The translations under genes and the position numbers were made by a program. Below are positions 12,584 to 12,967 of a stretch of 32,476 nt of DNA, piece by piece (position 1 is the first letter of the stretch; each line of letters starts with the position of its first letter). Origin of the DNA: Meiothermus sp. (GTDB lineage: Bacteria; Deinococcota; Deinococci; Deinococcales; Thermaceae); contig NZ_JANXCG010000091.1 of the NCBI RefSeq assembly GCF_025060375.1, forward strand, positions 1-32,476, written 5' to 3'. The notes under the pieces were generated by a model. The model ran no database searches. It saw only the letters and a list, made by a program, of their open reading frames with translations, and was not told where the DNA came from.

Positions 12584-12967
12584 GTGACGACGGTCGCGGG
12601 GGGTCGCTGGGTAGCGGAGATATACGGCTGCAATCTGGAGGTGTTGGAGAACCCCAGACTGGTTGAGCTGGCCCTCAAGGACGCCGTGCTCAAGCTGGGG
12701 GCCCCTTCGGGGAGCGTTCAGTCTACGGTTTACAAGTTCTATCCCCAGGGGCTTTCGGCGGCTGTGCTCTCTCCGGTGGCCGCGGTGATGATTCACACTT
12801 GGCCCGAAGACAATGCCTCGGCGGCCCTCGACCTCTACTTCTACAAACCAGACGTGGACCCCGAGTCGGTGCTGCGGGGGCTGGCCCGGGCTTTTGGGGC
12901 CCGTGAGGAGTCGGCCTTTCGCTTCTGGCGTGGGGGAGAGCGCGAAATTAAGCGCAGAAAGCCCTAG
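12584..12967 (+). CDS. S-adenosylmethionine decarboxylase (SpeD)-family protein lacking the processing serine
   Basis: A 127-residue protein of the bacterial SpeD fold. The family frame is clear: WVAEIYGCN (9-17), [11 protein letters not shown] (51-61) and IHTWPE (70-75). True SpeD cleaves itself at a Glu-Ser-His site, turning the serine into the catalytic pyruvoyl group; aligned by the IHTWPE anchor that site reads Val66-Ala67-Ala68. The proton-donor cysteine of the FTCG motif is also replaced (YFYKP, 85-89). The IHTWPE histidine (H71) remains. The product therefore should neither self-process nor decarboxylate by the usual route. It precedes speE by 58 bases, so a regulatory or structural role in polyamine synthesis, like the catalytically dead AdoMetDC prozyme of trypanosomes, is an inference. 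Start is GTG. Confidence 0.8.

Follow-up and report, generated by a model that had tools for sequence, protein, structure and literature searches.

A conserved SpeD pseudoenzyme encoded beside speE is probably a non-catalytic subunit of AdoMet decarboxylase in Meiothermus and other Deinococcota

The class 2 AdoMet decarboxylases of eukaryotes (human, potato) combine one pyruvoyl half with one serine-less half that carries the motifs F-x-P-x-G-x-S and I-H-x-x-P-E. In the human enzyme, F223-x-P-x-G-x-S229 and H243-x-x-P-E247 (PDB sequence numbering) are both located in the half without the pyruvoyl serine, and we take Phe223 and Glu247 to contact AdoMet. In class 1b SpeDs, the equivalent residues would act across the dimer. 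Human Ser229 corresponds to Ser55 of T. maritima SpeD (PMC3975893). The eukaryotic enzyme, two fused class 1b domains of which the C-terminal one has no cleavage site, is thought to represent two fused SpeDs with one half dead; the same authors note that two true SpeDs are not known to be fused in any present-day prokaryote (PMC10407285). Bacterial AdoMet decarboxylases with a dead, C-terminal SpeD domain are described, namely the SpeD-SpeDC fusions of Victivallis vadensis and Desulfobacter latus (PMC10407285). In trypanosomatids, a dead paralogue, the prozyme, is required for the activity of the live enzyme.

The protein studied here, SpeD1, shares both motifs with the serine-less half of the class 2 enzymes, but SpeD1 and its serine- and cysteine-bearing paralogue SpeD2 are encoded by separate genes at different loci, whereas the eukaryotic halves are fused in one chain. 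The SpeD-SpeDC proteins are single fused chains as well, and reciprocal residue loss is not described for them in the available part of PMC10407285. The prozyme belongs to the double-domain proteins of class 2 and acts allosterically, whereas SpeD1 is a single class 1b domain that probably completes an active site. T. maritima class 1b SpeD (1tlu, 1tmi) has the same fold as the SpeD1 model but is self-processing, with all catalytic residues present. The SpeD1 of T. thermophilus (TTC0473, beside SpeE, TTC0472; PMC4021367) is the orthologue of our protein by name and by its position beside SpeE, and its deletion has been studied; however, the open-access papers searched mention neither the loss of the serine and cysteine nor a heterodimer in Thermus.

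The gene lies in a 32,476-nucleotide stretch of a Meiothermus sp. contig (NZ_JANXCG010000091.1), hereafter the window, with the following features (residue numbers are those of the window protein unless stated otherwise).

12584-12967, + strand: speD1, serine-less class 1b SpeD homologue; ORF of 127 aa with a GTG start, Pfam PF02675
12737-12757, + strand: F52-x-P-x-G-x-S58 motif, kept (T. maritima F49...S55; human F223...S229)
12770-12772, + strand: Ser63 (in SPV), invariant in SpeD1, three positions ahead of where the cleavage serine canonically lies
12776-12784, + strand: Val65-Ala66-Ala67 codons, in place of Glu62-Ser63-His64 (T. maritima) of self-cleaving SpeDs, from alignment to T. maritima SpeD
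12794-12808, + strand: H71-T-W-P-E75 motif, kept (T. maritima H68...E72; human H243...E247)
12842-12844, + strand: Tyr87 codon, in place of the catalytic Cys83, from the alignment
13026-13961, + strand: speE, aminopropyltransferase, 58 bp downstream of speD1

The window ORF matched the Pfam family PF02675 (AdoMet_dc) with an E value of 5e-22. Against the AdoMetDC equivalog TIGR03330 (cut-off 75.65 bits) it scored 55.7 bits, under the cut-off, and the other SpeD of the same genome, SpeD2, scored 79.7, above it. The alignment to T. maritima SpeD ran without gaps from the GxS motif through IHTWPE, so that no shift puts a serine at the cleavage site. A shifted alignment, which the original prediction had named as a finding that would overturn it, was ruled out by these anchors flanking the ungapped stretch. 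Two residues of a functional self-processing AdoMet decarboxylase are missing from SpeD1, which has Ala66 for the serine and Tyr87 for the cysteine. The Val-Ala-Ala codons and the lost cysteine had been read correctly before, with residue numbers one too high (Val65-Ala66-Ala67 is correct). Upstream of speD1, an unannotated membrane-protein-like ORF (12046-12561), for which a Pfam search gave no match, comes after hisC-hisB-hisH-like genes and ends about 20 bp before speD1, with which it may share a transcript. Further along the window, a stand-alone B12-binding domain of the methylmalonyl-CoA mutase type (14733-15167) is followed by a peroxidase-related CMD-family protein.

The Meiothermus genome of the window, close to M. 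luteus, has exactly two PF02675 genes, SpeD1 and a SpeD2 with 96% identity to that of M. luteus, together with a single-copy SpeE (95% identity to that of genome G008). Exactly two PF02675 genes were found in 47 of 50 Thermaceae genomes, with none in two and one in a single 65%-complete genome. Every Thermaceae genome having any SpeD (48/50) encodes the serine-less SpeD1, and all of these except the 65%-complete one (47/48) encode SpeD2 too. Beyond Thermaceae, family f2 contributes two genomes with SpeD1 and family f4 seven, giving 57 Deinococcota genomes from three families and 58 loci examined; it was not found outside Deinococcota among the plasmids, phages and viral contigs scanned. The gene speE adjoins speD1 on the same strand in all 57 genomes, and SpeD2 is encoded elsewhere in 56 of them, the exception again being 65% complete. 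Thus, a SpeD homologue without the pyruvoyl-forming serine beside speE is real, the serine loss being common to all 58 SpeD1 loci, and, as had been anticipated, Thermaceae throughout have kept the Ala-Ala form (in three, Gly-Ala) next to speE, with a serine-containing SpeD elsewhere; T. parvatiensis RL SpeD1, for example, has the Ala-Ala form. In the tree, SpeD1 formed one clade (support 98), and SpeD2 formed another (support 84) inside a group with viral SpeD2-like proteins (support 100).

SpeD1, SpeD2 and SpeE have been lost together from two genomes in the genus of the window, both of which keep SpeA. Genus g13 (family f4) yielded no SpeD1 and no intact SpeD2, and its SpeE has as neighbour a SpeD that is divergent and resembles class 1a (motif LDKSHIAAHTYPDF...STCGE); at these loci (L113, L114, L116, L133, L134) this SpeD appears to have replaced the SpeD1/SpeD2 pair. 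Loss of the pair therefore accompanies the loss of SpeE or the arrival of another SpeD. At locus L112 (G052), SpeD2 has Val for Cys83, SpeD1 and SpeE were not found, and the gene is perhaps decaying after the loss of its partners. The SpeD2-like homologues of family f5 (L117, L119-L132, L135, L136) and of G062 (L115) have no speE nearby, and many of them, without the cleavage serine and/or the cysteine, make up a second set of SpeD pseudoenzymes.

The dN/dS between the window speD1 and five relatives was about 0.02-0.08 (one further pair was saturated, dS 1.9), and 34 positions were invariant over 31 SpeD1 representatives. Judged by its sequences, SpeD1 is under strong purifying selection, that is, a conserved and selected pseudoenzyme.

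We compared the active-site residues of 54 distinct SpeD1 and 54 SpeD2 sequences, numbered as in Thermotoga (T. maritima) SpeD. Glu62, Ser63, His64 and Cys83 were absent from all 54 SpeD1 sequences, position 83 being Tyr in 53 and Phe in one, and His7 was replaced by Arg. Phe49, Ser55, His68 and Glu72 (human F223, S229, H243 and E247) were kept in 54/54 each, as in the serine-less half of a class 2 enzyme. SpeD2 showed the features of the live half, with Glu62, Ser63 and His64 in 54/54 and Cys83 in 53/54, and had an acidic residue at position 72 in only seven of 54 sequences (six Glu, one Asp). This position was acidic in all 66 SpeDs of a comparison set that includes six viral SpeD2-like rows, leaving 60 others. 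By parsimony, on trees built without the scored residue columns, position 72 changed 11 times in SpeD2, where only three of 122 sites changed more often. It did not change at all in SpeD1, and the comparison set, although much more divergent, showed a single change. A single SpeD2 (L111) has Gln for His68, and the SpeD1 of its genome (L110) keeps the histidine. Position 55 is uninformative because ordinary SpeDs carry Ser or Thr there. Apparently, SpeD1 lost the residues acting within its own subunit and kept those expected to reach the active site of a partner, and SpeD2 shows the complementary pattern. An earlier proposal of a dead paralogue with a non-enzymatic role agrees with the conserved, serine-less state of SpeD1, but 'non-enzymatic' is probably too weak, since the kept residues are those expected to complete the active site of the partner.

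Viral SpeDs found with the SpeD1 motifs were all serine-containing, and their position 72 was biased by the search pattern, which was replaced by an unbiased one. Nine distinct SpeD2-like proteins outside Deinococcota had an acid at position 72 in four cases and K, K, I, Q and L in the other five, and no SpeD1 was found beside these five acid-less viral genes on the sequence stretches examined. The loss of the acid in SpeD2 may therefore predate SpeD1 and need not have been caused by it. The SpeD of phage phiYS40, which reportedly functions in an E. coli strain without speD (PMC9992855), has Asp at position 72, as would be expected if an enzyme acting on its own needs an acid there. In Microcystis phage MaAM05 (L314, 1986-4764), a SpeD2-like gene (Ile for Pro71, with Asp72) lies between an intact T. 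maritima-like SpeD and speE-speB; this operon may encode the whole pathway from arginine to spermidine, including a pyruvoyl arginine decarboxylase.

The predicted folds of SpeD1 (pLDDT 85.7) and SpeD2 (pLDDT 82.9) both matched T. maritima SpeD (1tlu), with Z scores of 17.1 (112 residues, 2.2 Å, 38% identity) and 17.9, respectively. Both models aligned best with the C-terminal half of human AdoMetDC, so that structure alone does not assign SpeD1 and SpeD2 to the two halves. A search of the window genome for PF01536 (class 2 AdoMetDC) gave no match, but the controls of this search were equally silent.

The pathway around SpeE is present in the window genome, which has an agmatinase-family gene, SpeA and the single SpeE; of the 50 Thermaceae, 49 have a full-length SpeA. 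The only PF02675 genes of the window genome are SpeD1 and SpeD2, and no further AdoMet decarboxylase was found in it. With the SpeE pathway present and no other candidate, the decarboxylated AdoMet for SpeE should come from SpeD1/SpeD2. T. thermophilus SpeD1 was reported to be necessary for N1-aminopropylagmatine, and the speD1 deletion strain has no long or branched polyamines and grows above 75 °C only with added polyamines (PMC6418473). The previously suggested activating, prozyme-like role of the dead paralogue agrees with this phenotype, which could, however, be polar on speE because the two genes lie only 2-12 bp apart in Thermus. The branched polyamine synthase BpsA gave no match in the window genome, and the control Thermus composti matched; this Meiothermus probably makes no branched polyamines, and the link to branched polyamines drawn in the original prediction does not hold for it.

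These results support a model in which SpeD1 and SpeD2 together form an AdoMet decarboxylase with a shared active site and SpeD1 as its non-catalytic subunit, which we regard as the probable arrangement, although by no means a secure one. The broader proposition, that SpeD1 is a non-catalytic subunit needed for AdoMet decarboxylation, whether it shares the site or acts allosterically, we hold with good confidence. SpeD2, encoded at the other locus, would self-cleave and supply the pyruvoyl group and the catalytic cysteine, and SpeD1 would pair with it face to face, giving Phe49', Ser55', His68' and Glu72' to this single site. The other site related by symmetry, with Ala63 and Tyr83 of SpeD1 (T. 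maritima numbering) and position 72 of SpeD2, would be dead. The complex would provide decarboxylated AdoMet to SpeE, which is encoded next to speD1. SpeD1 would then correspond to the C-terminal half of the human enzyme and SpeD2 to its N-terminal half. We infer that the heterodimer forms, that the kept residues of class 1b enzymes act in trans and that the two subunits divide the work in this way.

A different route to the same dependence is prozyme-like allosteric activation, in which SpeD2 has complete sites of its own and SpeD1 binds and switches it on while giving no active-site residues. The trypanosome prozyme, a dead AdoMetDC paralogue that allosterically activates the live enzyme (PMC5201418), is a precedent; a dead paralogue and a live SpeD with Ser and Cys are found in the same genome here too, and the T. 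thermophilus deletion phenotype fits equally well. However, this explanation accounts neither for the Phe49, Ser55, His68 and Glu72 kept by SpeD1 nor for the usual lack of Glu72 in SpeD2, and the eukaryotic enzymes dimerise via a domain that is absent from the bacterial ones (PMC5201418). We consider it unlikely.

The constant position of speD1 immediately beside speE raises the idea that SpeD1 serves SpeE, as partner or scaffold, instead of SpeD2, in the manner of human spermine synthase, whose N-terminal domain is a dead AdoMetDC-like one. The SpeD1 model does align with that domain (3c6k; Z 9.8, 91 residues, 2.6 Å), but SpeD2 aligns with the same domain with a Z score of 10.3, so the match is not specific to SpeD1. 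Furthermore, the active-site residues kept by SpeD1 would be left unexplained, and in E. coli, where SpeD1 is absent, T. thermophilus SpeE yields both spermidine and spermine/thermospermine (PMC11107197). Since SpeE functions there without SpeD1, the tuning of SpeE suggested in the original prediction is disfavoured, and a SpeE partner role is quite improbable.

There is a similarly small chance that SpeD2 is a pyruvoyl-dependent arginine decarboxylase and not an AdoMet decarboxylase, with SpeD1 having some other role. SpeD-derived arginine decarboxylases exist, but the study describing them found anomalous SpeDs only in genomes without SpeA and SpeC (PMC10407285), and full-length SpeA is nearly constant in Thermaceae. 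The loss of the acid at position 72 would suit a ribose-less substrate, and the MaAM05 gene order (SpeD, SpeD2-like, speE-speB) suits an arginine decarboxylase; nevertheless, no further AdoMet decarboxylase turned up that could supply SpeE with its substrate. A combined version, to which we give only a slim chance, has SpeD2 acting as an arginine (or other) decarboxylase with itself, an activity that some of its SpeD2-like relatives may have, and as an AdoMet decarboxylase with SpeD1, which provides the ribose-binding glutamate. If this were true, SpeD1, produced from the speE operon, would by its level control the flow into polyamines.

Self-processing of SpeD1 at another serine, the invariant Ser63 of its SPV turn three residues upstream, is very improbable: the alignment is ungapped from one flanking motif to the other, SpeD1 lacks the Glu base as well as His64 and Cys83, and Thermotoga Ser63Ala and human Ser68Ala are non-processing mutants according to their PDB titles. 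That SpeD1 is a pseudogene retained by chance has a negligible likelihood despite its lost catalytic residues, as the 57 genomes of three families, the dN/dS of 0.02-0.08 and the 34 invariant positions rule out a decaying copy, including the unique one that the original prediction had allowed for as its refutation.

If SpeD1 is indeed the non-catalytic subunit of a split AdoMet decarboxylase, a dead SpeD half can become fixed before, or without, fusion. The model would also account for the dependence of T. thermophilus on a 'decarboxylase-like' gene for its polyamines and for growth at high temperature, and the annotation of speD1 would be corrected across a whole bacterial group.
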